Of a stretch of 64,000 bases of DNA, positions 21,395-59,700 are shown one piece after another. The DNA comes from a virus. The DNA is taken from positions 62,001 to 126,000 of IMG/VR virus record IMGVR_UViG_3300042367_000228, one strand, 5' to 3'. The notes under the pieces are model-generated. The model saw only the letters and a program-made list of their open reading frames with translations, searched no databases and was not told where the DNA came from. The stretch's first letter is position 1. The number at the start of each line of letters is the position of its first letter. Position numbers and translations under genes: made by a program.

Positions 21395-22829
21395 AAATTT
21401 TAAAAACATAATTGCCACAATCCCATAGTCGTCGGTATTTGTTTGCAAACATGTTTTCAGTTTGAGATAACATATTATTATAATTAGGTAACCATTTTTT
21501 TAAATTCTGTTTTTGACATTTATATCTAGATATAATAGTATTTCCGTCAGTCCAGCAAAAACCAGGTCCGGTAGTTCTTTCTAAATAGAACCCAATTGAA
21601 GTATACCCAGTACCATTTGATTTATTCCTATCACAATACGAAACAATAGTTGCATTATTAATTTGACGTTTTGCGTACGAAATTAATTTACTTGCGCCAC
21701 CAACTACAGTTACATTAAGTATAGTAGCCATTCTTATTAATTCGTATGATTCTGATATTTTTGAAAATCGATCTCTTCCAATTGAAATTGCCATTTGAAG
21801 TTGGTTATTATACAATAATCCATAATAATATTTTGCAGGAGCAAATCCGTGTAAATGGTTAGTATTAAAAAAATCTTTAGCTTGAATAGTATCTAACTCA
21901 ATAATTTTGCATTTTCTAGCATAAAGTTTAGTAGTTAACTGTAGCTTTGATCTTAATATTGATTTAATAATAGATTGTTTATTATTCCATTCCCAATCAC
22001 TAATATGAATTAAATTAATTCCTTTTGAATTTGCAAGATTAGTTTTGTCCATATGGCGATTTTTATATTCAATTTGGGTAGACATTGGATTAAACGAATG
22101 CCAATATAATCCGTTAATCTCTATTCCTAAATTATGTGATGGAATTAAAATATCAATCTCTTTACCATCTAAAATAGTTCTATCATGCGGAATAGATTTA
22201 ACATGTAATGTGTTAATATAAGATTCAATTTGTTTTTCAATAAGAGAATAGTTACTGTTTGACCGTATAGTAAAATTATGTTTTTTACAATATTCAATTA
22301 CTGTTGAATAATATACATCTAACTCATCTGCAATATCAACTGCGCTGCGTTTATTAATGTTATATTCATTATCTAACCAATTATAATCTGTTAAACAAGC
22401 ATGTGAATATTCTGAAATTTTAGGTTTAGACAACATAGGTTTTACATCATTACGTTGAGAATTAAATTCAACTCCGTATTTGTTAATCATTGTGTTAGAT
22501 CGTTTTTTGTTTATCTCAGATTGTAATGTAGTAGAAACTTGTTCTTTTGTTTTTTTTACGCTACTACAAATGTTTTCACGGGTACAAGTACACGATGATG
22601 CTGGACCGCATCCGTAAAATCCTCTATTAAATCGTTTGAACTTTTGATTATTACCGTATTTACAGACACCATTTTGTTGATATATTGCACTATATGCATG
22701 TTCGCTTAATGAGTTTGAAGTTACAAGTGAATTTTTATAGATCCAATTTAACATTTCTAAATTTTTTTTAAAAATAGAAGGATATGATGTTGGGTTTTCT
22801 AAAATTATTTGAAGTATTTGTGTTTTCAT
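21393..22829 (-). CDS. Vsr-like (EDxHD-type) free-standing homing endonuclease
   Basis: 478 residues. A Cys-rich N-terminal segment (C56, C74, C80, C82, C88) suggests a zinc knuckle. One NTMINKYGVEFNSQ repeat follows near 112-125, then a helix-turn-helix-like stretch (AVDIADELDVYYSTVIEY, 163-180). The nuclease core has E224 and D226 in KEIDILIP, E237 in GIEINGLYWHS, then H244, H259 and K262. This is the PD-(D/E)XK arrangement of Vsr-like homing endonucleases. The C-terminal region (about 300-478) has VVGGASKLI, VSYCDRNKSNGTGYTSIGF and a GNAT-like look. The gene sits just after gp23, has its own promoter (22836-22864) and terminator, and is a paralogue of the enzyme at 42280-44031. Confidence 0.83.
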   Translation of the reverse strand: MKTQILQIILENPTSYPSIFKKNLEMLNWIYKNSLVTSNSLSEHAYSAIYQQNGVCKYGNNQKFKRFNRGFYGCGPASSCTCTRENICSSVKKTKEQVSTTLQSEINKKRSNTMINKYGVEFNSQRNDVKPMLSKPKISEYSHACLTDYNWLDNEYNINKRSAVDIADELDVYYSTVIEYCKKHNFTIRSNSNYSLIEKQIESYINTLHVKSIPHDRTILDGKEIDILIPSHNLGIEINGLYWHSFNPMSTQIEYKNRHMDKTNLANSKGINLIHISDWEWNNKQSIIKSILRSKLQLTTKLYARKCKIIELDTIQAKDFFNTNHLHGFAPAKYYYGLLYNNQLQMAISIGRDRFSKISESYELIRMATILNVTVVGGASKLISYAKRQINNATIVSYCDRNKSNGTGYTSIGFYLERTTGPGFCWTDGNTIISRYKCQKQNLKKWLPNYNNMLSQTENMFANKYRRLWDCGNYVFKI

Positions 22830-25849: not shown

Positions 25850-26716
25850 TTACTTTCTGCCTGGGATTAAACTTCTTTTGTTAATACCATTGTCACCTGA
25901 AGATTTTTTCTCTGCGCCGTGACCTTTTGGAACTGGTTTCAACTTAGGTGCTTTTGTATTTCCAGGAACGTTTTGGTTTCCGCCATCCATTTTAGATGTA
26001 GATGGGTTTAACAATCCGCCTTTTGTACCTTCGCCTGATGCAGTTTTACCAAATTTAGGAGCTACACCACCCATGTCATTGTATTTAGGTTTGTTAAAAA
26101 TACTTTTGTTATTAACACCGTTGTCACCGTGTTTAGGTAATGCAACTTTGTTTACGTATTCAAACATACTTTGGAATTCGTTTTCTTCTTCGCCTTCTTC
26201 GTCGTCAAATCCGCCTAGGTCGCCGCCTAATTCGTCATCACCGAACATGTCTTTGTGTTCTGGTTCGTTTTCTTCACCAGCTAAAAGTTGTTCAAATTCT
26301 GATTTTAATTCGTCTAATGCATCTTCTAAATCAAGAACGCGGTCTTCTAGTTCGCTGTCGCTTTCTTCGTCGCCAAACTCGTCTCCGCCAAATTCGTCAT
26401 CGCCACCGATGTCGTCATCGCTTTCTTCGTCGTCTGCACCAAATTCGTCATCGCCTTCTTCGTCATCGCTGCCAAATTCGTCATCGCTTTCTTCGTCGTC
26501 TGCACCAAAGTTATCGGCTTCTTCATCATCGTCGCTTTCTTCATCATCGTCGCCGAACGCTTCTTCAAATTCTTCTTCGGCTTCTTCAGATAATAAATTT
26601 TCATAAATTTCGCGAGATTTTGCTACTACAATATTGTGAAATATGTCTTTTGCTGCTTCATGATCTTCATTGATCAATGCCTCAAGCATGGCTTCAAATT
26701 TTTTACGGTCAGTCAT
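25850..26716 (-). CDS. Acidic prohead core-type protein
   Basis: 288 residues. The N-terminal helix (KKFEAMLEALINEDHEAAKD) is followed at about 46-155 by very acidic repeats of the form DDEESDDEFGxDDEE, then a Gly/Lys-rich basic tail ending INKRSLIPGRK. Small acidic core proteins (gp67, gp68) stand between gp20 and gp21 in T4, and this gene has the same place, charge pattern and neighbours. It is therefore probably a core component; which T4 protein it replaces cannot be told. Ribosome site AGGAG before ATG at 26716. Confidence 0.7.
   Translation of the reverse strand: MTDRKKFEAMLEALINEDHEAAKDIFHNIVVAKSREIYENLLSEEAEEEFEEAFGDDDEESDDDEEADNFGADDEESDDEFGSDDEEGDDEFGADDEESDDDIGGDDEFGGDEFGDEESDSELEDRVLDLEDALDELKSEFEQLLAGEENEPEHKDMFGDDELGGDLGGFDDEEGEEENEFQSMFEYVNKVALPKHGDNGVNNKSIFNKPKYNDMGGVAPKFGKTASGEGTKGGLLNPSTSKMDGGNQNVPGNTKAPKLKPVPKGHGAEKKSSGDNGINKRSLIPGRK
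26380..26570 (-). repeat. Acidic-codon tandem repeat in the core protein gene
   Basis: Imperfect repeats of about 33-60 bases with recurring phrases such as tcgtcatcgctttcttcgtc and tctgcaccaaattcg on the plus strand. They encode the DDEESDDEFG units. They are slippage-prone and likely vary in number between relatives. Confidence 0.75.
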
Positions 26717-28852: not shown

Positions 28853-31800
28853 TTATCCCAACAAATTACCCGATAAACTTTTAGTTGCTCTAACTTGTTT
28901 ATGACTATTACTGCTAATAGTATCGGCATGTTGAACCATCTGTATCATAGTCTTATTTAACTGTAATAGTGAATCATGTAAATCTTTTAATGTTGTCTCG
29001 TGTGCTACCGGTGCAGGTGTTGCAGGTGGCGGCGTAACTGGTTTTTCTGGTTCTGGTTGTTTAACAGGTTGTGTAGGTTTAGGTGGTTCTACATCTTTCT
29101 TTGTTAATACTGCATGATCTGATTTTACGTCTTTAATTGATGCATGCGATTGTTTTACTTCTGCTGAAACTCTAGAATTATAGTCATTAAACGTTTCTAA
29201 TCCAAACTTTTTGTACATTTCTTTAATATGCGCTTGCTCTTTTGTTTCTGCAGGCTTCTTAAGTTCAGGTTTAGGAGGTTCAACTTTAGAGTTATCGTTA
29301 ATATTAGCAGGTTCTGCAGGTTTTTCACTTTCGACTTTAGGTTTTTGTTTGTAATAACTTGAATGTTGTCTATTAAGCTCTGCAATACGAGCTGCAGTTG
29401 CTTCTGGACTATGATCTATTTTACCTATTCCTTCTTGAGACCGTTTTTCTGAAGCAGCTAGTTCTTCTGGTGAAATTTCTTCGTATTTTACATTACCTTT
29501 AGCAAATGATGGCTTGTTATCACTCTTAAATAATCCAGATATAGACGAACCTACATCACTAAACGTGTCTGTTATACTATCAAAGAACCCTTTTTCTTTA
29601 GGTTCTTCTTTAGTTGGTTCATACCTTATAGCAGTATCTTCTAATTTTGGAATACTTGCAGGTTTAATAGTAGCATCTAACGATTTAAAAGAACTTCCAA
29701 GCTGATTACTTAATTCTTCAAATGCTTTAGGTTTAACATCAGGTTTTATACTTTCAGTGGACGGTAGTTCTTTTTTAGATCCACTGCTATAAATCACCAT
29801 TTCTTTCTCAGCAGTTGTCATTTCTTTAATAGACTTATCAGTTACTTTAGATTTATCAGTTTTTTCAGGTTCTTTTGCACCGTGCTCCTTCATAAACTTC
29901 TTTTCGGCTTCTAATGCTTGCGCAACTTGGTTTGCATGAGCTTCTTGAGCGGTTTTATTTTTAATTTCAGCATGTTTAGCTTCTTCTTCAGCATGAAGTT
30001 TTAATTTACCTTTAGTTTTGATTAAATCATCTTCGTAACTGAGTGCTATTTTTGCAACTTCTTCTTTTTTCTTAGCTAAACGTTCTGCAGCTTCGGCATT
30101 TGGCTTAGTATTAGCTGCTTTCATTTGTTCGTAGTCAAAAGATGCGTTTTCTAATGCTTCTCTTTTCTTTTGTAACGCCATTCTTGCAGCAGATGGGCCT
30201 AATTTGTCTTCAGCAGCTTTACCTGAGTCACTAAGATCCATCTGTGACATACCAATTTTAGAAATATCACCAGAATTCATTGATTGTTTAAACTTAGCTA
30301 AGTTTATTAAGCTTTCGTCTAACTTTGAAACATCTGGAGCTTTAGGTTTAGGTAGTGGAGCAATTGTAGTTTTAGGTTTTTCAGCATTTGCTATTTTAAC
30401 TTCAGTTAATGACCCTGATACTGCTTTGCCTAGGTGTTCAAAATTCTGATGTAATGCAGTAATAGCCGATTCTTCTAGAGACTTAGGTAGTTTAATTGCA
30501 TCTAGATTAGGAGTAGTAATTTTTGGTGGTTCTTTAGGGGTAGCTGGTTTAATAAGTTTGTTAAATTGTTCTCCTAATTGTGCAATAGATTGTTGTTCTA
30601 CAAACTTAAATTGATTTTCAGCTGGTTTTACTTCTGCTTTAGGTGGCTCAGCAGGTTTTACTTCAGCTTTAACCTCTGCTTTAGGTGGCTCAGCAGGTTT
30701 TACTTCGGCTTTAACCTCTGCTTTAGGTGGCTCAGCAGGTTTTACTTCGGCTGGCTTAGTTTGAGGAGTTGCTTTTTCAATTGCTTTAGTAACAGTTTCG
30801 TGCATTTCTTTTGCTTGTGGAGCAAATGTAATATTTTTAAATTTTTCAGCAATATCAGTAAACTGTTTAGCAACATTTTTCATTTCAGTATTAATATCTG
30901 TAAATGTTTTACCTAATTCAGTTAATTGCGGAGCAGCAGGTACTGTTTCCGATGTGGTTGTAGGAATTTTAATATCAGTAGTACTTGGAGATGGTGTTTT
31001 TGCTTGTTTTTGATCAGCTGATGCTACACCAGGTGGCATCATTTGCTGTACAAACCGTTTCATTTGATCTTCATTAGCTACAATTTCGTTACCATGAAGT
31101 TCTGCAAGCTCACCTTTTGGATCAAAGTGCGTAAACATGTCTTTAAATCCGCCACCACCTGATAAGAATTTTTCAAAGTCAGGAGTTCCGTCAGCAAAAT
31201 GATACTTAACTGGAGATGCACCTGTTTGTTCTGGAGTTAATGTTGGAGTGTTTTTATGTGCTTCAATAGCTTTTTGATGAGCAGTAGATAACGGAAGTGA
31301 TGCTTTAAATCCATCAGTAATTTCCTTAGCCATGTTACCAGGTGTAGCTTGTTCCTGTGTTCTAGGTCTAAGTGCATTATTAATACCATCAAAAGTTCCA
31401 ATTAGTTTATTACCACTGTCAACTAGCCCACCAAACATTTTAGATGCACCTGCAGACATGTCTTTTAATGTGCGATCGGCTTTGTTTAGTGTAGTATCAA
31501 GCTCTGCACCTTTAAATTTTTCACCTTTTTCGTCTAATCCTTTTTGTGCATTATGAGCTTCTTCACGAATCATTCGTCTAGCAGTAGCTTCGTCGATATT
31601 ATTACCTTTATTTCTCTCTTCATCAATTTTTGTTTGAATCTGAGGTAATTCTCTATTGTTTGTTTGTGCTTCGATTGCTCGTTGTGTAACACCGCCTGAG
31701 CCATATTGCACCATATCTTTAAAGCCATCAGAATTTTGCCATCTATCAACAGCTTCTAATGCTTTTTGCATTTGGATCTGTGCTGCAGCTTTTTGTTCTG

Positions 31801-32788
31801 GAGTGTTTGCAGATTTCATTGCTTCTGCAGCTTTTTGCAATTCTGGACCAGCGTCGCCCATTGCAGCCATAGATTCTGCGCCTTCTTTAGTACGCAAACC
31901 GCCTGTGAACGTTTCTTGGAATACTCGTTTAGCAGCTTCTGGCATGCCTGCCATGTCTTGCATGGATTCATTAAATCTATTACGAGCATCTTTGTCTAAT
32001 CTTGATAATGCAACTTGGACAACTGCATCTTCATTACGTTTTCTTAAATCATCTTCTTGCGCTTTCCTACTTAAACCAGTTATTCGAGTAGTTTCATCCA
32101 TTGCTGCGGTCATTCGAATAGCAGAATCGATTGCAGCATTTTTAGATTCAATATCTGACATGTCAATACCGCGTTGACTGCCCATTGCTGCTTTAGCTAC
32201 CTCAGTAACGTCTTCAGTTTGAAGTCCAAATTCTTTTAATTTGTCAACTACATCAGATTCTTGTAAACCTTTAGTAAATTCTAAGAAGTTTACTTGTGAT
32301 CGGTTCATAGTTGAACCTAAACCATTTAGTTCAGTTGCATTTCTTTTAAGAATATCACCGTATTCTTCATGTGTTAACCTTGCACCTTTAACTAACCGAT
32401 CCATGTCAGCTAAATTATTATTAAAGTTAGATCCGTATTCACCAAATTCAGTATTCTTTTTATGTGCATCAAGTACAGAGTCGCCAACTTTTTTGGTTAA
32501 ATCACCTAAAGTTTTACCTAACAAGCCCCCATTGTTCTGTAATGCACCGGTAAGTACATGAAATCCGTCTGCTACTTTTGCACTACCTTCCCATACATTT
32601 TTAAGAGCACCGGTTGTTGCGCCTACCATGTCTACAAATCTATCAACTACGCCTGAGCCAGAGTTTGAACCTTGCGAGATTGGTGTTCGAGGTGCAGAGC
32701 TAATTCCGCCACTACCGCCTCGACCGTTAAGTTGTCTAGTAAGTCCTTCTATCGCTTCAGTAAGTCGTTCTGTTTCTGTTTGAGCCAT
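28853..32788 (-). CDS. Candidate tape measure or large virion protein, 1311 residues
   Basis: The first 500 residues are helical with a Gly-rich start (GRGGSGGISS), hydrophobic stretches (VVDRFVDMVGATTGALKNVW, LVDSGNKLIGTFDGINNALR) and many charged helices. Then come Pro/Lys/Glu repeats (KPAEPPKAEVKAEV, about residues 680-725), more coiled coil, and a Pro-rich C-terminus ending in a helix (SSNSHKQVRATKSLSGNLLG). Length, helicity and the divergent neighbour (a gp26-type baseplate gene with a frameshift extension, as tail chaperones beside tape measures) suggest the tape measure that sets tail length. T4 gp29 is only 590 residues, so this is an inference; an internal virion protein is the alternative. 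Confidence 0.55.
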   Translation of the reverse strand: MAQTETERLTEAIEGLTRQLNGRGGSGGISSAPRTPISQGSNSGSGVVDRFVDMVGATTGALKNVWEGSAKVADGFHVLTGALQNNGGLLGKTLGDLTKKVGDSVLDAHKKNTEFGEYGSNFNNNLADMDRLVKGARLTHEEYGDILKRNATELNGLGSTMNRSQVNFLEFTKGLQESDVVDKLKEFGLQTEDVTEVAKAAMGSQRGIDMSDIESKNAAIDSAIRMTAAMDETTRITGLSRKAQEDDLRKRNEDAVVQVALSRLDKDARNRFNESMQDMAGMPEAAKRVFQETFTGGLRTKEGAESMAAMGDAGPELQKAAEAMKSANTPEQKAAAQIQMQKALEAVDRWQNSDGFKDMVQYGSGGVTQRAIEAQTNNRELPQIQTKIDEERNKGNNIDEATARRMIREEAHNAQKGLDEKGEKFKGAELDTTLNKADRTLKDMSAGASKMFGGLVDSGNKLIGTFDGINNALRPRTQEQATPGNMAKEITDGFKASLPLSTAHQKAIEAHKNTPTLTPEQTGASPVKYHFADGTPDFEKFLSGGGGFKDMFTHFDPKGELAELHGNEIVANEDQMKRFVQQMMPPGVASADQKQAKTPSPSTTDIKIPTTTSETVPAAPQLTELGKTFTDINTEMKNVAKQFTDIAEKFKNITFAPQAKEMHETVTKAIEKATPQTKPAEVKPAEPPKAEVKAEVKPAEPPKAEVKAEVKPAEPPKAEVKPAENQFKFVEQQSIAQLGEQFNKLIKPATPKEPPKITTPNLDAIKLPKSLEESAITALHQNFEHLGKAVSGSLTEVKIANAEKPKTTIAPLPKPKAPDVSKLDESLINLAKFKQSMNSGDISKIGMSQMDLSDSGKAAEDKLGPSAARMALQKKREALENASFDYEQMKAANTKPNAEAAERLAKKKEEVAKIALSYEDDLIKTKGKLKLHAEEEAKHAEIKNKTAQEAHANQVAQALEAEKKFMKEHGAKEPEKTDKSKVTDKSIKEMTTAEKEMVIYSSGSKKELPSTESIKPDVKPKAFEELSNQLGSSFKSLDATIKPASIPKLEDTAIRYEPTKEEPKEKGFFDSITDTFSDVGSSISGLFKSDNKPSFAKGNVKYEEISPEELAASEKRSQEGIGKIDHSPEATAARIAELNRQHSSYYKQKPKVESEKPAEPANINDNSKVEPPKPELKKPAETKEQAHIKEMYKKFGLETFNDYNSRVSAEVKQSHASIKDVKSDHAVLTKKDVEPPKPTQPVKQPEPEKPVTPPPATPAPVAHETTLKDLHDSLLQLNKTMIQMVQHADTISSNSHKQVRATKSLSGNLLG
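30619..30744 (-). repeat. 42-bp tandem repeat (about 2.7 units)
   Basis: Two adjacent 42-base units, 30661-30702 and 30703-30744, differ at one base, with a partial third unit before them. They encode KPAEPPKAEVKAEV in the Pro/Lys/Glu linker of the 1311-residue protein. They are likely length-variable. Confidence 0.85.
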
Positions 32789-32852: not shown

Positions 32853-33677
32853 ATGGCACAAAATCCTTTACAACAATATTACAGACAACCAAAAATTTAT
32901 ATTCCATTGCCTTCAGGCGGCATTTATAATAAACTTGGAAGTTTATCAGGTGATGCAACCCACATGCCAATTTATAGCATGACTGGTATGGATGAAATTA
33001 TTGTTAAAACACCTGATGCATTAGTATCGGGGAAAAGTACAGTATCGATTATTGAAAGCTGTTGCCCAAATGTTAAAAACGGTTGGGAAGTAACATCATT
33101 AGATACTGATTTATTGTTAGTTGCAATTCGTATTGCAACATTTGGGAATATTTTAGAAATTACAAATGTATGTGATAAATGTGGAACAGAACACGACTAC
33201 GATGTAGACTTAACTACAGTAGTTAATCATTTTGCACAGTGCAAATATGATAGTGTTATTGAGTATAATGGATTGATTATTAAATTACAACCGTTAACTT
33301 ATAAACAAACTACTGATTTTTCAATTCGTAACATGCGTTTACAGCAACACTTATCAGCAGCTGCAGCTCAATCAGCTGATGAACAGAAAAAGATTATTGA
33401 GGAGTTATTTAAAGACTTAGGCGCATTACAAAACGACATTTATTCTGCTAGTGTTGAGTCAGTTGATACTGGAACAGTTGTTGTAACCGAACCTAATTTT
33501 ATTTACGATTGGTTAACAAACTGCGACAAAGATGTATTTGATAAAATCCGCGAGCAATTTAATAAAAATAAAGACGTTTGGAGAGTTCCAGATGTTAAAG
33601 TTAAATGTTCGTCATGTGGTCACGCTGCTGAATTGTCAATCGATTTAGATCAATCAAATTTTTTCGCAGCCGCCTAA
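32853..33677 (+). CDS. 26: Baseplate hub protein, gp26 / T4_baseplate family
   Basis: 274 residues, ribosome site CGGAG before ATG. The N-terminus (YYRQPKIYIPLPSGGIYNK) and DALVSGKSTVSIIESCCPNV are characteristic of the T4 baseplate family. Two CxxC pairs (C107/C110 and C252/C255) suggest a zinc site. In T4, gp26 takes part in hub assembly. The last codons read N-F-F-A-A-A-stop, and the two Phe codons (270-271) form the slippery sequence TTTTTTC, so a fraction of ribosomes should shift into the next ORF to give a product of 348 residues. The pairing with a divergent candidate tape-measure gene resembles lambda gpG/gpGT. Confidence 0.85.
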   Translation: MAQNPLQQYYRQPKIYIPLPSGGIYNKLGSLSGDATHMPIYSMTGMDEIIVKTPDALVSGKSTVSIIESCCPNVKNGWEVTSLDTDLLLVAIRIATFGNILEITNVCDKCGTEHDYDVDLTTVVNHFAQCKYDSVIEYNGLIIKLQPLTYKQTTDFSIRNMRLQQHLSAAAAQSADEQKKIIEELFKDLGALQNDIYSASVESVDTGTVVVTEPNFIYDWLTNCDKDVFDKIREQFNKNKDVWRVPDVKVKCSSCGHAAELSIDLDQSNFFAAA

Positions 33678-33719
33678 TTAGAATGTCATATAACGAAATT
33701 GTTAATTATCTAGTTAGGC
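33659..33719 (+). promoter_or_regulatory. Predicted programmed -1 ribosomal frameshift signal
   Basis: The heptamer T TTT TTC (33659-33665) is in the phase needed for a -1 slip. After a 6-nt spacer (33666-33671) comes a 10-bp stem: GCCTAATTAG (33672-33681) pairs with CTAGTTAGGC (33710-33719), with one G-U pair and a 28-nt loop. The -1 frame stays open (Arg-Ser-Arg-Leu-Ile-Arg) straight into the ATG of the 71-codon ORF. The overlapping heptamer AAATTTT (33656-33662) is also slippery. Zero-frame termination occurs 9 bases after the heptamer. Confidence 0.75.
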
Positions 33720-33898
33720 TTGTAAACGAAATTAAACAATTTAAACTTGAACTTTATAGGTTATGTTGGTATATGCGAGGTGGTGTTAATATTAACGATC
33801 TTCTGTATACTCTAGGATCAGAAGATCGCGATATTATGTATGATATTGTTAAAGACAACATTGAATTAACTAAAGTATCAAGGATGCCGCTACTTTAA
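33683..33898 (+). CDS. 71-codon ORF, gpT-like C-terminal extension of gp26 by frameshift
   Basis: Encodes an all-helical small domain: NEIKQFKLELYRLCWYMRGG, then LGSEDRDIMYDIVKDNIEL, ending in RMPLL. The pattern LCWYMRGG followed by a helix recurs in small genes after the gp26-type gene in T4-like phages (recollection). The ATG has no ribosome site (preceding bases TTAG), while the -1 frame of the gp26 gene leads directly into it, so it is probably made mainly as the tail of a fusion. Its stop overlaps the stop of the convergent 282-residue gene by 9 bases. Confidence 0.72.
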   Translation: MSYNEIVNYLVRLVNEIKQFKLELYRLCWYMRGGVNINDLLYTLGSEDRDIMYDIVKDNIELTKVSRMPLL

Positions 33899-35827: not shown

Positions 35828-35870
35828 AGTGTTTTGTTAGATTATATTGTGTTTAGTATTTTTAAACAAA

Positions 35871-35878
35871 TATTTATC
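35871..35878 (-). promoter_or_regulatory. Late-type motif GATAAATA
   Basis: GATAAATAT on the minus strand, 44 bases before RNase HI. It lies within the leader of the sigma70-type transcript and could add late expression; it may also be chance in an AT-rich gap. Confidence 0.35.
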
Positions 35879-35907
35879 TGAACAACTTCTCCACCTTGTT
35901 AGAAACG

Positions 35908-35936
35908 ATTATACAGTCATTAGTATCAAAAGTCAA
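35908..35936 (-). promoter_or_regulatory. Sigma70-type promoter TTGACT-N17-TATAAT
   Basis: On the minus strand TTGACT (35936-35931) and a perfect TATAAT (35913-35908) are separated by 17 bases. The predicted start is near 35901, giving a leader of about 74 bases to RNase HI. The same hexamers and spacing occur before gp55. Confidence 0.78.
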
Positions 35937-35981
35937 CTGCTATTATTACCAATGGTAAATATACACAATATAGGAACACAT

Positions 35982-37667
35982 ATGAAAGTTACTGACATTT
36001 TAAAAGAAGAGTCTGAAGAAGAAATTAATCAAAATCGCGATAAAATTTTAGGACAGATACCTGCTGAATATACTAGTAAAAATTCACTTTATCAAAGCTG
36101 GAGGAAAGTAGTTGCAGGAGCACACAGACGATGTTGGTTTGCTAACGCTAAATCTGTTCAAGAAAGAACTCCATTAAAACTAAGTCGTGAATTTAATGTA
36201 ACATATCAATATCTATGGGATTTAGTTAAGGTGCAACAATGGAAATGTGCAATTACTGGTGAACCATTAGCTCCGATCGGTAATAAAGATGATAATAATC
36301 GAATAAGTATTGATCGTATTGATTCAACTAAAGGATACATACCTGGTAACATTCAATTTATTACAGCAAGAAGTAATTTAATGAAATGGACACATGATCA
36401 AAATGACTTTGTTAAGTATTGTCAGCAAATTGTTAGTTACACTAATAAGAATGGAATACCGTATGATCCTGCAGATCAATCGACTAAATTAAAAGAAGCA
36501 TACATTAAACAACCACCGAGCATTTTAAGAACATGGAAAAACAAAAGTGGTCCATTACATTATTTTTTAACTTCACCTACTAATGAACCATTATATGCAG
36601 ATTTAGCTGCTAAAATACCGTGGCGTAGTAAAACTGGATCTACTTTTGAAAAGATGTTTCTAACACCGCAAACTGCAGCTACTTTGCTTAATTGGGTTAA
36701 ATTAGGAGATGCTGCTTACAGAGAACAAAATATTCCTGAGTTAAAAGAAATTAATTCTAGATTACTTATAGTAATGGGAAAATGTATCTCATCGGCTAGT
36801 AGTCAACTAGAACAAGGAAAGTATCCCGAAGAGCTAGGTGTACCAAAATCTGTATTAGCATCTCTTAAGAATTTTAAAATTGCATTGCAAGATCTACATG
36901 ATGGCAAAAAAATGATTCTTACAAAAAAAGCAGGCGAATCACAAACTGATGGTAGATACATGACACAAATAGAACGTAAACAGTTTGAAGATTACATGTT
37001 ACAAATTGATCAGTATTTACAAAACCGCCCTTCTTATGAGCAAGCAAAAGCTCTTTATGATCAAGTAAGACATCATATTGATAAAATTACACGACGTACC
37101 CTACAGAATACTGCACAAGGTATAACTCCTGCACAATTTCTTGCAAATCAACTAGCGTCATCAAAATTTGATGTAGTAGATGATGATCGATTTACATCTA
37201 GTGATTTTGCAGCGTTAGATCCTCAACTTCAAAAACGCATTACCGCACAGCAACAACGAGGAGCAATGCCAGATGAATGGGATAGATCAAAACCGGAACA
37301 TAGATCGTGGAAAAAGGTTTTAAATAATGCTTTTACACGTATTTTGTCACGCTCAAAAAAACGTGAAGAAACTGGTAAAACCGCGTTAGATCAACATAAG
37401 TTTAATGCTAGTAATGAAGAATTATGGAAAGTAATAAATGACCAAAATTGGACATGTCCGTATACTGGAAACAAACTAGAAGCTACTGGAGAAGGTTCTG
37501 ATAACCAACTTAGTCCAGATCGTATTAACTCAAGTTTAGGATATGTTTCGGGTAACATACGATTTGTTACTTACAGAGTTAACATTATGAAAGGGGATCG
37601 ATCATCGGCGGATTTTGTAAACAGTTGTAGACAAATAGTAGCTAATCAAAAATCTAAGAAACCTTAG
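35982..37667 (+). CDS. Double HNH-like protein with capsid-targeting-like N-terminus
   Basis: 561 residues from ATG 35982, chosen over an upstream in-frame ATG (35847) because AGGA stands before it and the upstream codons look non-coding. Begins MKVTDILKEESEEE, similar to the leader of the 282-residue protein and to the T4 capsid-targeting sequence. HNH-like domain 1 (about 80-150) has CAITGEP, ISIDRIDSTKGY, GNIQFITARSNLMK; domain 2 (about 480-550) has CPYTGNK, LSPDRINSSLGY, GNIRFVTYRVNIMK. Both lack the usual DH pair and use DRI(D/N). The middle is helical with no recognised domain. It could be a homing-type nuclease or an injected nuclease. Its 3' end overlaps the convergent 173-residue gene by 14 bases. 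Confidence 0.72.
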   Translation: MKVTDILKEESEEEINQNRDKILGQIPAEYTSKNSLYQSWRKVVAGAHRRCWFANAKSVQERTPLKLSREFNVTYQYLWDLVKVQQWKCAITGEPLAPIGNKDDNNRISIDRIDSTKGYIPGNIQFITARSNLMKWTHDQNDFVKYCQQIVSYTNKNGIPYDPADQSTKLKEAYIKQPPSILRTWKNKSGPLHYFLTSPTNEPLYADLAAKIPWRSKTGSTFEKMFLTPQTAATLLNWVKLGDAAYREQNIPELKEINSRLLIVMGKCISSASSQLEQGKYPEELGVPKSVLASLKNFKIALQDLHDGKKMILTKKAGESQTDGRYMTQIERKQFEDYMLQIDQYLQNRPSYEQAKALYDQVRHHIDKITRRTLQNTAQGITPAQFLANQLASSKFDVVDDDRFTSSDFAALDPQLQKRITAQQQRGAMPDEWDRSKPEHRSWKKVLNNAFTRILSRSKKREETGKTALDQHKFNASNEELWKVINDQNWTCPYTGNKLEATGEGSDNQLSPDRINSSLGYVSGNIRFVTYRVNIMKGDRSSADFVNSCRQIVANQKSKKP

Positions 37668-42280: not shown

Positions 42281-44031
42281 TATTTTTTTAATTTAAATAC
42301 TAGTTGTCCGCAGTCCCAAACTTTAAAAAACCCGTTGTTTTCCATATTTTGTGATGCAGTTAATGTGTTATCAAATGTTAATAGTTTGTGTTTCATTAAG
42401 TGTTTTTGCCATTGATACCGTGAACCTGCATACTTTCCGGATTTATCAATATAAAAAAATCCTGGTGGTGATGTAGATTCTAACGTAAATCCTAATTTGT
42501 AATAAACATTACCAGTGCTATAACGACGATTGCAATACGACAGTAATACATCATTGGGTTCCATATAACATTTAACAAAATGTTTAATAAGTTTACTTGC
42601 GCCGCCTACTACTTGCAACCCCGAGAATGAACATAATCGTAATAGTTCAAATGTATTAGTGGCTTTAGTAAATCTTGGCTTACCAAACGTTGCAACCATA
42701 ATTAATCTATTAGTAGTATCGTACAGACCTAGGTTAATTAAACTGTTAACGTCTCCCTGCAGGTGATGAGTTGATATAAACTGTGCCTTCTCAGCTGAAT
42801 TAACTACTTGCAGGTTAGTGTGCCTTGCGTATAATTTAGAATGTAGCCCTAATCTGCTATCAATTAAATTAATAGTTTGTTCCCATTTTTCATTAATTTC
42901 TGTATCCCAAAATTGTAATAATGCAATGTTTTGTGATATACATGCATTAGTTTTTTGTAAATGATACATCTGTGTTTTGTTATACTGTTCTGAATGAAAA
43001 TAACATCCGTTAATTTCTATTGCTAAATTATAGTCTGGAAAATATAAATCTAATTCTTTAGGTGAAATTATAGTTCTATTATTCGTAATTATTTTAACAC
43101 CTTTTTGATCATAATGCAAGTATAATCTTCGTTCTAATTCACTTGCAGAATGCCGGACGATATTAATATTTAATGAATGAAAAATTTTGCATAGTTGACT
43201 AGAACTAATACCTATATCATTAGCAATCTCGTGTACAGTTTTACCTGAATGCTGTTCATTTTCTAGCCAAGATGCGTTTGTAAGTTTTTCTAATGTATCT
43301 GCAGAAAAATAGTGTTCTCGTTTAGTAGCAACGCTTTTTTCTCGTATACTTGCATTACTTAGAGGATTAATATAACCGTATTTAATAATGTTAGTATCTT
43401 TAATTTGTTGTTGAATATCTAAATTTAGTAACGGATTAGTGCAGCCGTATCTAATAAGATTCGTTTCTTTAATTTTAGATTGAACATTATAATTTTTTGC
43501 AGGATTATCAAAGCCGTATTTAATTAAATTAGTATTTTTAATTTTTTGCTTAGTCTCTGATAAGTGCATAACATGTGATACATTATATTTTTCTAAATTA
43601 GAAGTAATAACACGTTGTTTGTATTCGTCAGTTTGAGAATAATGGTCAACACCGTATTTTTCTAAACTAGTAGATTTTACTTTAGTTTTCCAATCGTTGG
43701 TTTGAGTGTGCCATTCGACACCAAGAAGTTCTAAATTCTTTTTCTTTTTTATAACAGTAGAATAAGTTGCAGTGCATTTTGGACTGCAATATGCTCGGTA
43801 TTGTTGTAAATCTAAATGCCAACTTAACTGGTTACTGCATTCACAACACGGAATTACAAGTGATTGTTGTTTAATATGATAAATTATTTGTCTAGCATTT
43901 GTACTAGACAATAATGTAGAAATTTGTGATATTTGTTCAGCATACGGTGTTTTTAATAATGCTGTGTAAGACAGGCGAGGTCGCCTGTCTAAATCCGTTA
44001 ATGTAGTTAAAATTTTTTGATATTCAATCAC
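42280..44031 (-). CDS. Vsr-like (EDxHD-type) homing endonuclease with KYG repeats
   Basis: 583 residues from GTG 44031, overlapping the gp55 stop as GTGA. N-terminal zinc knuckle (C62, C63, C65, C82, C86). Residues about 119-231 are five repeats of about 24 residues with the core TNLxKYGxxNP, a DNA-binding array. A helix-turn-helix-like stretch (TVHEIANDIGISSSQLCKIF, 265-284) follows. The Vsr-like core has E326/D328 in KELDLYFP, E339 and H346 in AIEINGCYFHS, H357 and K360. The C-terminal part (VVGGASKLIKHF, LSYCNRRYSTGNVYYKLGF) is GNAT-like, as in the paralogue at 21393-22829. It interrupts the gp55 to gp47 operon. Confidence 0.85.
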   Translation of the reverse strand: MIEYQKILTTLTDLDRRPRLSYTALLKTPYAEQISQISTLLSSTNARQIIYHIKQQSLVIPCCECSNQLSWHLDLQQYRAYCSPKCTATYSTVIKKKKNLELLGVEWHTQTNDWKTKVKSTSLEKYGVDHYSQTDEYKQRVITSNLEKYNVSHVMHLSETKQKIKNTNLIKYGFDNPAKNYNVQSKIKETNLIRYGCTNPLLNLDIQQQIKDTNIIKYGYINPLSNASIREKSVATKREHYFSADTLEKLTNASWLENEQHSGKTVHEIANDIGISSSQLCKIFHSLNINIVRHSASELERRLYLHYDQKGVKIITNNRTIISPKELDLYFPDYNLAIEINGCYFHSEQYNKTQMYHLQKTNACISQNIALLQFWDTEINEKWEQTINLIDSRLGLHSKLYARHTNLQVVNSAEKAQFISTHHLQGDVNSLINLGLYDTTNRLIMVATFGKPRFTKATNTFELLRLCSFSGLQVVGGASKLIKHFVKCYMEPNDVLLSYCNRRYSTGNVYYKLGFTLESTSPPGFFYIDKSGKYAGSRYQWQKHLMKHKLLTFDNTLTASQNMENNGFFKVWDCGQLVFKLKK

Positions 44032-53300: not shown

Positions 53301-53787
53301 AAATTTAATTAAATCAATTTCAGATGAGATAGTATACCATCCGGTGGTTTATAAAGTATTGTTTGGTGCTGACGCAGATCCGGAATTGCAAGCAACTTTT
53401 AAAATTACAAAAACACCTGGTCGGGTAATATCTGATAATGATGTTAAATCTCAAGTAATTGTTTCTATTAATGATTTCTTTTCGTTAGATAATTGGGACT
53501 TTGGCGACACGTTTTTCTTTACAGAGTTAGCAACATACGTTATGAATTCTGTATCGCCAAATATATCTAATTTTGTAATTGTGCCAAAACACTCTAATAT
53601 TAATTTTGGCGGATTATACGAAATTAAATCAGACAACAACGAAATTTTAATTAACGGCGCATCAGTATCTGATATTGAAATTATTTCAGGAATTACAGCA
53701 ACTAACATTAAATCGTCAAACGTAACAATTGACAATAACACAATAAATCGACAATTTATAACTAGCTCAATATATGGGAGTAACTAA
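50338..53787 (+). CDS. 6: Baseplate wedge protein gp6
   Basis: 1149 residues, nearly twice T4 gp6 (660). The N-terminus carries VDYIRQNYPEDFNDYIESSE, YLALLDVIAFLGQSVAFRVD, then ENFLELAERRDSVLRLARLI, the gp6/gpJ-family wedge core. The C-terminal half has the baseplate-J-like ring domain (ITKTPGRVISDNDVKSQVIV, FSLDNWDFGDTFFFTELATY). Ribosome site AGGA. gp6 makes the ring that links the wedges. Its stop overlaps the start of the next gene (TAATG). Confidence 0.92.
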   Translation: MSATDRQNRLLVAEDWKKVYQSFKNADFQSYDFENLRRTMVDYIRQNYPEDFNDYIESSEYLALLDVIAFLGQSVAFRVDLNARENFLELAERRDSVLRLARLISYNAKRHIPAYGLLKFTSVQTSQNILDSNGRNLSGQSVVWNDSSNANWYDQFIKIINAVMDPTQQFGNPSDKDTIYGIPTEKYTLNTTTSGVPLYSFTKTVAGRVMNFEVTSSTFTGQNYVYEEAPKVGRKLSCIFRNDGQGYGSAGTGFFLNFTQGTLASSEFTVTQPRSNEIVDVGTTGINNTDVWMYRLDKTGAELDENLWTKVSNFEGNNIIYNSVNKSIRNIYSVTTRASDAISLNFSDGTFGNKPLGTFKVYYRTSNGISYSINPRDIKNVSISIPYTSNLGKKETLTLSLSLATAVTSAEEAETNAHIKANAPSTFYTQNRMITGEDYNIAPLSVSQQVLKVKAVNRSSSGISRYFDLVDPTGKYSSTNLFADDGVIYTEDYQITDSFSYYSKTDIEGVIYNIVNSLLKKSELRNFYYSHYLSEFPPLGSTFYWEANVTTLGCVKRTGIGSIAQVGPTQSIPDDLRYIRTGALVKFISPVGKYFNTFLDNALTDIPENTNMSDIPGAVDYLWAAVVSVDTAIAGQSLTGITLNVKIPSNAYVYQIIPQFRAALETSVILTMIDLIFENKAFGLSYDALTQSWKIIYESNINYLSSFSLGNQRDVTATQQDASWMLLFTTNNEKYILTSRETRYIFESDKQLRFFYDKNDVISKTISSSVVRDKINVLGINRHPSSTKPFTTDFMWDIVSEYIGLDGYVDNKKIVISFADIDDNGVVDNPEMFNVIVEPLNLNILPNKKYVIQERYSISVGQDDYRYYDNFTNDTVKILNLETEVVDYPNYQYYYFIDTGVVKKRTTNSLMLSTDYKVYAGRDKLKFQYIHNANYDSRIDPGASNIIDVYILTKSYDTLFRRWINGSISYKPLPPGSDELYNVVAPSLNLIKSISDEIVYHPVVYKVLFGADADPELQATFKITKTPGRVISDNDVKSQVIVSINDFFSLDNWDFGDTFFFTELATYVMNSVSPNISNFVIVPKHSNINFGGLYEIKSDNNEILINGASVSDIEIISGITATNIKSSNVTIDNNTINRQFITSSIYGSN

Positions 53788-56700
53788 TGGCTAACAACAT
53801 CATCATACCTAGAACCGAATCAACTGACACGAGCGATGACGCAACGGTTGCATCGTTTTTACCTAGGCATTATAGATCTGATGCAAATAAAAAATTTTTG
53901 CATTCAACAATTACTCAATTAACACAGCCAGGACAAGTTAAAAAAGTTAGCGGATATATTGGAAGACAATATTCTAAGTCTACCGTTTCGGATGATGTAT
54001 TTGTTAATGCTCCTACTAGAAATAGACAAAATTATCAACTTGAACCCGGATTTGTTATTGATGATATGTTAGATAATACTGTATTTTTTAAGGATTATCA
54101 GGATTATATTAATCAACTACGAGTGTTTGGCGCAAATGTGTCGGATCACTCAAGATTAAACAAACAAGAATTTTATAGTTGGAATCCGCATATTAATTGG
54201 GATATGTTTGTTAATTTTCAAAATTATTATTGGATGCCACACGGTCCTGACACAATTACTATTAAGAACGTAGCTTCAACTATTGCAACTAGTACATATC
54301 AGGTAACTGTTGACACGTCAACAGCTGACAGCTCTTATATGTTTTCCCCTGACGGAATAACACGGAATCCTGTAATTGCATTATATAGAGGTCAAACTTA
54401 TAAGTTTATAATTGACAGTATTGAAAATACATTTAGTATTAAGACACAGAGAACTAACGGACCTTTAAATCGATATGTAAGCCCATTGCTGATTAACAAT
54501 TCTATTCAGTCTGGTGAAATTACATTTACAGTTCCGGATAATGCGCCTGATCAGTTATTTTATGTTAGCGAAAGTAATATAGATATGGGAGGGGTGTTTA
54601 ATATTTTAGATCTAAGCGATAACAGTTACATTAATGTTGATGCAGAAATTATCGGAAAGAAGACTTATAAATTTAATAATATTAATTTAAGTAATGGAAT
54701 GCGAGTTCAATTCGCAGGTAATGTATATCCTAAGACCTATGCAACTGGTAGATATTTTGTTGAAGGAGTAGGCACTAGCATACAATTAATAAATGAAAAA
54801 GATTTAGAAATTATAACATCGTATACTACATCAAAATCGATGCTGTTTGAAAATGATTTATTTGATACAACTCCATTTAGTGATTCTACATCGTATGTAA
54901 CTAATCCGGATTATATTGTAATTAATCGAGCAAGTAACGATAGAAATTTTTGGAGTAGAAACAATAAGTGGATTCACAAAGAGGTGATTGAGAAGAGTGC
55001 GTTAGCAAACGACATACCTGCAACTTACGATCAAGCTTTTAGAGCAGTTAGACCAATTATCGAATTTGAAAAAAATTTAAAATTATTTAATTTTGGAACT
55101 CGTGCAATCGTTGATGTTGATGTAATTGATACAGTTACTCGTGATGCATTTTCAACAATTGAAGGGTCGTTAGGATATAACATCGATGGCATTAATTTAA
55201 TCGAAGGACGACGAGTAATATTCACTGCAGATACCGATGTTCTTGTAACAAATAATGTATATCAAGTAGATTTTATTGATGTGTTGCATGAAGTTACTAC
55301 ACGAAAAATAAGCCAAACTGGAGTAATTGAGAAAGTTAACGCAATTAATTCAGGATGGACTGCAGTTGTTACAGGATTAACCTCAGTTGCAGGATTAACA
55401 GTCGGAGGGAATCTAATTGCAACTGCAGGAACCGGGCAATTATATAGCGGAACACTCGATCCTGATGTTATTAAAATAACTGCAATTCTTAGTTCTTCTA
55501 GCATTGCATATACTATCTTAGGTGGAGCAAAACCGATTGAAGGTACGATTACTAATATTTCTACTACAATGGATACTAGTCGTCAAATCCGACTAGTGAA
55601 AGTAGCCGAACCTGAACAAAACCAAGTTGTTTTAGTAAAACAAGGTACAACATATCAAGGTAACATATTTTGGTATAACGGAGTATCGTGGAACTTAGGT
55701 CAGCAAAAAACAAAATCAAATCAAACTCCTCTATTTGATATAGTAGATGTTAATTTAGTAAGTGTCGGTGATACAAGTTCATATCCAGGTACTACATTTA
55801 AAGGCACATCGATTTTTTCTTATAAAGTCGGAACTGGAACAACAGATTTAAATTTAGGGTTTGCATTATCGTATAAAAATATTAACAATATCGGTGATAT
55901 TGTTTTTAAATTTGCATTAATTAACGATGTATTCAAATACGAATTAAATGAAAAAACGATTACACAATCGATTGATACTGGATTCTTAGTTAAAACTAAT
56001 GATGATAACAGTGTACAATATGTTAACGGATGGGAAACATCTAAAATCAAAAATTCACAAGCTGCAATTCGATTATACAAGGATTCGGCTATAGTTAATA
56101 ACTTTGATATTGACATTTTTGATAGTCTTCCTGATATTAATGATATTGAAATTCGTGTATATGTGAATAATGACAGAATTATATCTGCAGATCAACAGCC
56201 TGCAGCATCTACAGAAAACAATTGGCAATTAGTTTCGACTAATTCAAAAAATGTTAAATTACCTTATTATCAAATAAAGTTTAAAAACGACGTTGAGTTA
56301 ACTGATATAGTATTAATTAAAGTAATTTCAATGATACCGATTAATTTAAACGGATACTATGAAATACCTATCAATGTTCAAAATAACCCGTTAAATAGTA
56401 TGTTGACAGAGTTTACATTAGGTGAAGTTCGCGACCATGTTAGCAGTATAATTGATAACATTTACACACTTGGGTATTTAGAATTGCAACCTAATGTTGG
56501 TAATCTAAGAGATTTAGGACCTGTGTCAGCTTACGGAACACGGTTTGTACAGCATAGTGGACCTGCAAGTTTGTCGTTATACCATATTACTTCTGATACT
56601 AGCAATGTAATTAGAGCAATAGAACAGTCAAGAGACGATTATTGTAAATTTAAAAAATCGTTTTTAACCGTATCTGAAACATTAGGTGTTGACACATCAC

Positions 56701-59700
56701 CGGTTCACCACGTAAATTTAATACTGCAAGAGTTGTTTATTAATTTTTCTAAAACATCACCGTATTATTTTAGTGATATGATACCGTATAATGCAAAAAC
56801 ACAAGTTGACTTTACCGTTTCGGCTCCTGAAGATAACATTTTTTCATTGTCGGCGGTTTTTGATTTACAATCACTGTCTAGTAAAGCAGTCGGCGTATAT
56901 TTAAATGATGTTCAATTAATTCACGGTAAAGAATATACATTTAATAATCAAGGATTTGTAGTAGTAACTGCATCAATAGTTGCAGGTGATGTTGTATCTG
57001 TGTACGAATATGATAGTACTGACGGATGCTTAGTGCCAGAAACTCCTACAAAATTAGGATTATGGCCAAAATATGAACCAAAACTATTTTTAGACACCTC
57101 ATTAATTACACCTAGGATGATGATACAAGGGCATGACGGTAGTCTAACATTAGCATATGATGATTTTCGTGATGAGTTATTGTTAGAATTAGAAAAACGA
57201 ATTTACAATAATATTAAAGTACAATACGATCCTCATATTTTTGATTTAACAGATATTATACCGTCTTATTCTCGTAAAACTGATTACAGTTTACATGAGT
57301 TCAATGATGTGTTAATGCCAAATTTTAATAAATGGGCAGTCGACGCAGGTGTTGATTTTTCAACATTGTTAAGTTATGATAAAACAAACTCTTTTACTTT
57401 TAATTATAATAATCACCGTGCTCCGGACGGTAGGATTGTTCCGGCATTTTGGAGAGGAATATACCAATGGATGCTAGATACTGATCGTCCGCATTTATGC
57501 CCATGGGAAATGCTAGGGTTTAGTGAAGAACCAGCATGGTGGATAGAAGTATACGGACCAGCACCGTATACAGGTAACAATTTAGTATTATGGGACGATA
57601 TTAGTAACGGTCTTATTAAAGAACCAAATAAATCGGTTGTTAGAGTTACAAAGTATATTAAACCATATCTATTAAACCATATTCCGGTCGACGAAGATGG
57701 GAATTTAATTAGCCCGTACTACAGCGGATTAGTATCTGGTGAAGAAGTTCGCAGTCTACAAGGTGATTTTACATTTGGCGACGGATCTCCAATTGAATCT
57801 GCATGGAGAAGAAGTTCTCATTACTCATTTAGTGTATTAAAAACTGCAATTTTGTTATATCCGGCTAACACAATAGGTAAATTAATTGATCGATCAAGGT
57901 TAGTTAGAAATAATGCAGGCCAGATCGTTTATGCTGATACAGGAGTAAGGATCACTCCTGCATCAGTTAAGTTTCCGAGTGTTTATTTAAGTAATACTCG
58001 TATTCAAACTGCAGGATTAATAAATTATTTAATTAACAATATCAATTGCGATACATTGGATGCATATACCGAATATAAAACTGAATTAGAAACTATTACT
58101 GCAAAATTATCTTATCGAGTTAGTGCATTTACATCTAAAGAAAAGTTTAACCTATTGCTAGATTCAAAATCTCCTACATCTGTAGGTAGTGTTTTTATCC
58201 CTCAAGAAGATTATAAAGTTATATTAAATACATCATCTCCTCTTACTACGTTAACATACAGTGGTGTAATTATAACCAAAGTAGCAAGCGGATACGAAAT
58301 TAAAGGTTATAGTCAAATACAACCATTTTTTAAATATTATACTCCAACTTCGTCTGCAGGTGCATATGTAAATATCGGAGGCATTTCTGAATCTTATATA
58401 GAATGGGGCATAGGCAATAGATATGTTGAAGGAAATATAGTTTCATATCAAGGAGGATTTTATCGTGTAACTGCATCGCATTTATCAACGGTTAATTTTG
58501 ACACTTCTATATATGTTAAACTTGATTCTTTGCCAATAGTCGGAGGAGTCGATGTAATCTTTAAAACAAACTGGAATTCAAATGCAAAAGTTATTCAATA
58601 CGGTACTCGAATTACAGATATTCAAGACGTTGTTGATTTCTTATTAGGATATGGTCAATGGTTATCTGCTCAAGGATTTAGATTTAATGAGTTTAGTTCT
58701 AGTTTAGAAACAGTATCAAACTGGGAAACTAGTGCTAAAGAATTTATGTTTTGGACTACACAAAACTGGACAGCACCGACAGTTATTTGGATAGAGTGGC
58801 AGCCTGAAGTTAGTATTAAATATGGTGACATTGTAAGATATAATGGAGAATTTTATAAAGCATTACTTACTATGAAACCTGGTTGGTTTAATGAAGATGA
58901 TTATTTGTTATTAAACGGGGTTGATTTAACTGGTAATTCAGTAATATCGTTAAGTCCTGCAGCAAATAAGTTGTCATTTAACACAGTGTTAACAGTAGTT
59001 GATGATATTAGTAATCCAAGTAATATCTACGAATTGTTTGATGCTAGTGGTAATCCTATTACTACACATTTTTTAAATACGTTCAGAGTAAACAATGAAG
59101 TATCGTATTCACCTCGAGGTGACGTAGGCATATATTGTGCAAGTTTTTATCTAATTCAACGTGAACATGTTGTAATTATCAACAATACCACAATGTTTAA
59201 TGATACAATATATAATTTGGAAAGTGGGTATAAACAGGATAAACTTAAAGTTTCTGGCTATGTTAGTATTAATTGGAACGGATCGTTAGCAGTTCCTGGT
59301 TTTGTAGTTGATAGAGCAATATTAACTGAATGGACACCGTGGAAGGCATATTCGATCGGTGACATTGTACGTCATAAATCATTCTATTATAGTGCTAATG
59401 AATCATATCAAGGCGAAGAACTATTTGACAATACAAAATGGGTAAAATTAGATAACAAACCAACAGCTAAACTATTGCCAAATTGGAATTACAAAGCAAG
59501 CCAGTTTAATGATTTTTATAGTTTAGATAGTGAAAATTTTGATATAGCACAACAACAAATGGCACAACATTTAGTTGGTTATCAAAAACGCCAATATCTT
59601 GAAAACATTATACAAGATGATGTAAGTGAATATAAATTTTATCAAGGTATGATTATTGAAAAAGGAACACAAAATGTTCTTAATAAATTATTTGACGTGT

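Follow-up and report, generated by a model that had tools for sequence, protein, structure and literature searches.

Frameshifted tail assembly chaperones are classical, and the heptamer used by lambda differs from the T TTT TTC found at the locus described here. A 2016 review considered tail-chaperone frameshifts to be widespread 'except T4' (PMC5009743). Tail assembly chaperone genes of T4-like phages were identified by Vladimirov, Gautam and Davidson (2022, Virology 566:9–15), as relayed by papers that cite their work: the PRFect paper states, with reference to them, that frameshifting is avoided in some T4-like phages, which have a short gene alongside a long, fused one, and the phage Adele paper invokes the same study for poly-T slippery signals in T4-like TAC-N genes. 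The tails of other phages, T4-like ones among them, already provide examples of this frameshift device, and the suggestion of an earlier note on this DNA that none had been described for the T4 gp26 family is not supported, given what the citing papers convey of Vladimirov et al. Our literature search, in which the 2022 study was known through its citing papers, returned nothing that describes such a frameshift in RaK2-like jumbo phages or the stem presented below; what is new, as far as searched, comprises the jumbo-phage clade, the covarying stem of its junctions and a C-terminal domain whose relation to that of gp51 is doubtful.

The gp26 and gp51 proteins of T4-like phages (PF12322) belong to the same N-terminal family as the protein studied here and comprise a short and a long form that share the N-terminal domain. 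T4 itself differs in having no slippery site (its gp26 ends FFELL, without the heptamer) and in that gp51 has an in-frame gene of its own; coverage of a T4-type gp51 reaches at least 80% in 1,334 phage records. Cyanophages, HTVC008M and KVP40 carry the same T TTT TTY site as the present locus, with a −1 ORF that is annotated as a small gp51, and the C-terminal domain measures 70–80 aa in the jumbo phages versus about 57–63 in the gp51 type. For lambda gpG/gpGT and P2 E/E+E′, no sequence or fold relation to the N-terminal protein was found, and the large candidate tape measure is divergent here rather than downstream in the same operon. The tail assembly chaperones of Vandenendeviridae and Andersonviridae (PMC12846349, 2025) are alike in their poly-T site at the end of TAC-N and in a −1 ORF that is often annotated separately, but they concern other phage families and the motif GTTTTT, and the available part of that paper mentions no covarying stem.

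A slippery heptamer and an open −1 frame at the end of the gp26-family gene

The window, i.e. the whole 64,000-nucleotide stretch of DNA analysed, covers positions 62001–126000 of the 372,016-base IMG/VR record IMGVR_UViG_3300042367_000228. Its gp26-family protein matches PF12322 (T4_baseplate; E 2e-15, 57.4 bits versus a curated cut-off of 24.5) and phrog_150 ('baseplate hub'; E 2e-18, profile 6–233 of 282), and its AlphaFold2 model has a pLDDT of 88.9; 89 phage records match the protein, 12 of which were examined. At the end of this gene the earlier note had placed a slippery site in the right phase, a 6-nt spacer and a 10-bp stem with one G-U pair and a 28-nt loop, all of which proved exact in their coordinates (Table 1), and its description of an open −1 frame that runs into a 71-codon ORF without a ribosome site was confirmed in the sequence. 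The first −1 codon is CGC at 33665 and the stop lies at 33896–33898, the residues read across the slip being F-F-R-S-R-L-I-R-M-S-Y. Counted from its own ATG, the small ORF (ORF2) occupies 33683–33898 (71 aa), and no Shine-Dalgarno-like sequence precedes that ATG. The predicted fusion is 348 aa long and would consist of gp26 residues 1–271 followed by a 77-aa helical domain, with CSSCGHAAELSIDLDQSNFFR as the predicted −1 junction peptide of the window phage; the AlphaFold model of ORF2 is all-helical with a pLDDT of 89.2.

For a chance estimate, confined to the window, a qualifying site was defined as an in-phase slippery heptamer within the last 20 codons from which the −1 frame stays open for more than 50 codons. 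The window has 59 open frames that are 100 codons or longer, and the end of gp26 is one of only two such sites among them, which is more than chance would suggest. The other, A AAA AAA close to where a homing endonuclease gene stops (Table 1), is possibly due to chance; a second homing endonuclease-like gene of phrog_3339 is present at 21396–22829 (−).

Table 1. Features of the frameshift locus and related genes, in window coordinates
Feature	Position	Strand	Remark
Divergent neighbour, 1311 aa, candidate tape measure	28853..32788	−	same divergent position in most jumbo relatives
gp26-family gene, 274 aa, frame 0	32853..33677	+	proposed short tail assembly chaperone (TAC-N)
Slippery site T TTT TTC at codons 270–271 (Phe-Phe), right phase	33659..33665	+	
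−1 frame extension, 77 codons after slip	33665..33898	+	proposed C-terminal domain of long chaperone (TAC-NC)
Spacer, 6 nt	33666..33671	+	
5′ arm of stimulatory stem, GCCTAATTAG	33672..33681	+	covariation
0-frame stop TAA of gp26	33675..33677	+	inside stem
3′ arm of stimulatory stem, CTAGTTAGGC	33710..33719	+	covariation
Homing endonuclease-like gene (phrog_3339)	42283–44031	−	A AAA AAA near 42288, 77-codon −1 extension

Conservation of the slip site and of the −1 phase

A search with the 71-aa ORF returned 28 loci, all of which have T TTT TTC and the −1 phase except one that is truncated. Retrieval solely by means of ORF2 peptides (two scans) gave 160 IMG/VR loci, in every one of which (160/160) ORF2 lies in the −1 phase, and the exact in-phase T TTT TTC is found at the gp26 end of 158. 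The exceptions are L206, where the heptamer is present and the upstream frame is broken, and L108, the sole locus of the 160 without the heptamer. In L108 the gp26 end appears rearranged or mis-assembled around 1880–1900. All 12 cultured jumbo phages examined (RaK2, 121Q, GAP32, CBB and others) possess the site, as T TTT TTC in 10 and T TTT TTT in 2 (XacN1 and RAS14), and have ORF2 in the −1 phase; annotations of these phages either list the extension of 70–80 codons as a hypothetical protein of its own or omit it. Outside the jumbo phages, ORF2 also lies in the −1 phase in the cyanophages S-PM2, P-SSM2 and S-CRM01 and in KVP40, each with T TTT TTC, and in the pelagiphage HTVC008M with T TTT TTT.

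Phe-Phe is invariant in the gp26 relatives, and the heptamer could in principle follow from these two residues. We rule this out because TTT-TTC is frozen at the slip codons as compared with the use of TTC elsewhere: with genes clustered at 90% nucleotide identity and the set restricted to those with either T TTT TTC or T TTT TTT (all but L108 and L206), TTT-TTC is used by 79/79 clusters of the window clade and by 76/76 and 75/76 of the cyanophage type, whereas TTC makes up 16% and 23% of the Phe codons elsewhere in gp26. Near-invariant two-fold columns of gp26, taken as a control, show a constancy of 0.50–0.96. The base that precedes the Phe codons is T whatever the residue it belongs to (Asn, Asp, Ser, Gly, Ala or Thr).

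A covarying stem downstream of the heptamer

The stem of the window can be extended to 11 bp with a 26-nt loop, and the junction RNA folds at −15.2 kcal/mol versus −7.8 ± 2.5 for shuffled sequences (z = −2.9). Across 60 ungapped window-clade junctions, picked from 81 for their common loop length, the 10-bp stem is 97.7% paired, and 5 of its 10 pairs show double changes (33 cells). None of 500 shuffles equalled the stem on percent paired, double-change cells or covariation score, a single one (1/500) matched its count of doubly changed pairs, and slid partners scored far below the real stem arms in the covariation test. When all 81 junctions are considered, each of the ten pairs forms in 62–77 sequences, and several of the remaining junctions have an equivalent stem with another loop length, e.g. 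GGCTAACGAG. The spacer measures 4–6 nt in 135 of 167 best stems. Among the cyanophage-type junctions listed, most have a different stem, often of 10–14 bp, at similar spacing. A simple search detected no stem in RAS14, L031 and L211; the stem is weak in some RaK2-group relatives and also less clear in L030. An Rfam search of the junction gave no match above the curated thresholds. A stimulatory RNA structure is accordingly found at suitable spacing, weaker in some relatives.

The alignment of the gp26 end and the following ORF over relatives, which the earlier note had proposed as a check, yielded a near-universal heptamer, the −1 phase throughout and a stem that covaries, and the sequence patterns that it had named as contrary are absent: no relative has ORF2 in another phase, and ORF2 starts are mostly lacking. 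Comparative sequence evidence shows the slippery site, the phase, the stem and the lack of independent initiation; this conservation is the decisive argument and, by the standards of comparative genomics, the conserved signal is a real programmed −1 ribosomal frameshift.

ORF2 could instead be a gene in its own right, with re-initiation or translational coupling at its ATG and no frameshift: in the window an ATG does stand 5 nt past the gp26 stop, and public annotations of several phages present the small ORF as a separate CDS. However, 63 of 79 clade loci have no ATG, GTG or TTG within the first 14 post-slip codons (the ATG is replaced by CTT, TTA, TCT and others in many of the 28 loci first retrieved), and independent initiation of ORF2 was rejected for want of these early start codons. 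The codons between the slip and the ATG are moreover conserved as protein in the −1 frame (R1, which is invariant in the clade, and L4 of the extension), and re-initiation would leave both the frozen heptamer and the constant −1 phase unexplained; a separate gene is thus very improbable. That RNA polymerase, and not the ribosome, changes the frame by slipping along the T run would fit a slip site that is a run of six T in the DNA, but six T are short for transcriptional slippage, the run is nearly always closed by C and not lengthened, and a covarying stem at 4–6 nt has the geometry of ribosomal −1 frameshifting. The closed T run and the stem at this spacing leave transcriptional slippage highly unlikely. 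A ribosomal frameshift that joins gp26 to a small helical ORF, as read in the earlier note, is supported by conservation, phase and stem alike.

Relationship to T4 gp26/gp51 and proposed chaperone function

A T4 review (PMC3004832) counts gp26 as well as gp51 of T4 among the hub assembly chaperones, and each of the two proteins matches PF12322. T4 gp26 spans positions 14–235 of phrog_150 and T4 gp51 spans 13–280, whereas the cyanophage −1 ORF matches 237–278 (E 2.5e-7) and aligns to the T4 gp51 C-terminus (hhalign E 2.5e-6). Since gp51 reaches position 280 and the cyanophage ORF2 matches 237–278, T4 gp51, a gp26-like part extended by a C-terminal piece, is organised like the frameshift product found elsewhere, and T4 has two genes for such a pair. 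The similarity of the jumbo ORF2 to the cyanophage ORF2 or T4 gp51 C-terminus is weak (hhalign score 20.2 versus a shuffled maximum of 19.3), and the C-terminal domains of jumbo phages and cyanophages may be analogous and not homologous because this similarity is marginal. Gene order is tail tube, gp26, small gp51, a 110-codon ORF and tape measure in HTVC008M, and tail tube, gp26 and small gp51 in KVP40, both of which resemble V-G-T-H of lambda. In the virion mass spectrometry of CBB, a single list from another phage, gp26 (CBB_250) and ORF2 (CBB_249) are both unlisted (PMC5259590). From the hub-chaperone listing, the organisation of gp51, the gene order and the CBB virion list, we infer a chaperone pair; judged by sequence, its short and long forms share the N-terminus as tail chaperones do.

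PDB sequence searches with both parts gave nothing significant, and PDB fold searches with both AlphaFold models (gp26 and ORF2) gave no match at E <= 0.001; they lend no support to homology with solved tail chaperones, which does not exclude a chaperone function. The best matches of ORF2 in a BFVD fold search are uncharacterised phage ORFs, none at E <= 0.001, and Pfam searches of 57 ORF2 relatives produced scattered weak matches only, which were taken as chance.

By analogy, gp26 most likely corresponds to gpG as the short tail assembly chaperone, and the fusion of 348 residues to gpGT as the long form. On sequence and analogy, we put the probability that the gp26 gene yields a short and a frameshifted long product, both tail assembly chaperones, at roughly 0.9. 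Slippage itself, its rate, the chaperone function and the partners are what we infer in the following scheme. Most ribosomes would terminate at the gp26 stop and release the 274-aa short chaperone, while the stem-loop 6 nt downstream of the heptamer would pause a minority, which slip back by one base on T TTT TTC and continue in the −1 frame to give the fusion. In analogy to lambda gpG/gpGT and T4 gp26/gp51, coating of the tape measure protein would fall to the short form and recruitment of tail-tube or hub partners to the long form, the rarer of the two, with the RNA signal fixing their ratio.

The frameshift may also be real with both proteins serving the assembly of the baseplate hub and not that of the tape measure or tube. 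T4 gp26 is classed as baseplate hub or hub assembly chaperone, and the baseplate genes gp5, gp25 and gp6 of the window lie ~15 kb away from the locus. A role confined to the hub is at odds with the placement of gp26 and small gp51 between tail tube and tape measure in HTVC008M, with the lambda-like two-form architecture and with the T4-like tail assembly chaperone genes that, according to the citing papers, were identified by Vladimirov et al. 2022, and we consider it unlikely. The two roles may not be exclusive, because T4 gp29 combines those of tape measure and hub protein. An ORF of at least 3404 codons (53787–64000, +), open at the window end, immediately follows the gp6-like baseplate wedge gene.

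The divergent neighbour and other genes of the window

The earlier note regarded the divergent 1311-aa neighbour of gp26 as a candidate tape measure, an identity that is not established by the data at hand. Proteins at this position in relatives are about 670–1370 aa long; that of CBB (CBB_251) is an abundant virion protein with 29 peptides (PMC5259590), and those of 121Q and RaK2 belong to phrog_14121 ('virion structural protein'). The window protein has no family match among Pfam and PHROG profiles, and similarity to the HTVC008M tape measure is marginal and restricted to the RaK2 group. PAEPPKAEVK repeats are present in the 1311-aa protein. Acidic repeats (DDEESDDEFG) occur in a 288-aa protein (25853–26716, −) encoded between the portal and a prohead-protease-like gene. 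A 606-aa protein (35847–37667, +) has two HNH/endonuclease VII-like regions and also matches PHROGs named Srd anti-sigma factor and decoy of host sigma70.

Ancestry and implications

In a midpoint-rooted tree with long branches, T4 gp26 groups with the N-terminal part of gp51, and frameshifting lineages fall on both sides of the deepest branch, a topology that tentatively fits an ancestral frameshift lost by duplication. We slightly favour a history in which the whole T4/jumbo myovirus supergroup inherited the frameshift from its ancestor and the T4 lineage lost it through the gp26/gp51 duplication, while the jumbo phages retain it with a covarying stem-loop of their own and perhaps with a C-terminal domain that has been replaced. 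The link that the earlier note drew between the T4 hub-chaperone genes and the lambda-type tail chaperone system is borne out by our comparisons, and the case for T4 gp26 and gp51 descending from a lambda-like frameshifting chaperone is strengthened. The locus also makes available a bacterial −1 frameshift element that is compact, deeply conserved and represented by natural compensatory variants. For RaK2-like jumbo phages and hundreds of uncultivated ones, the frameshift would explain the small hypothetical ORF beside gp26 as half of a frameshifted tail chaperone, and gp26 and ORF2 should therefore be annotated as one joined CDS.
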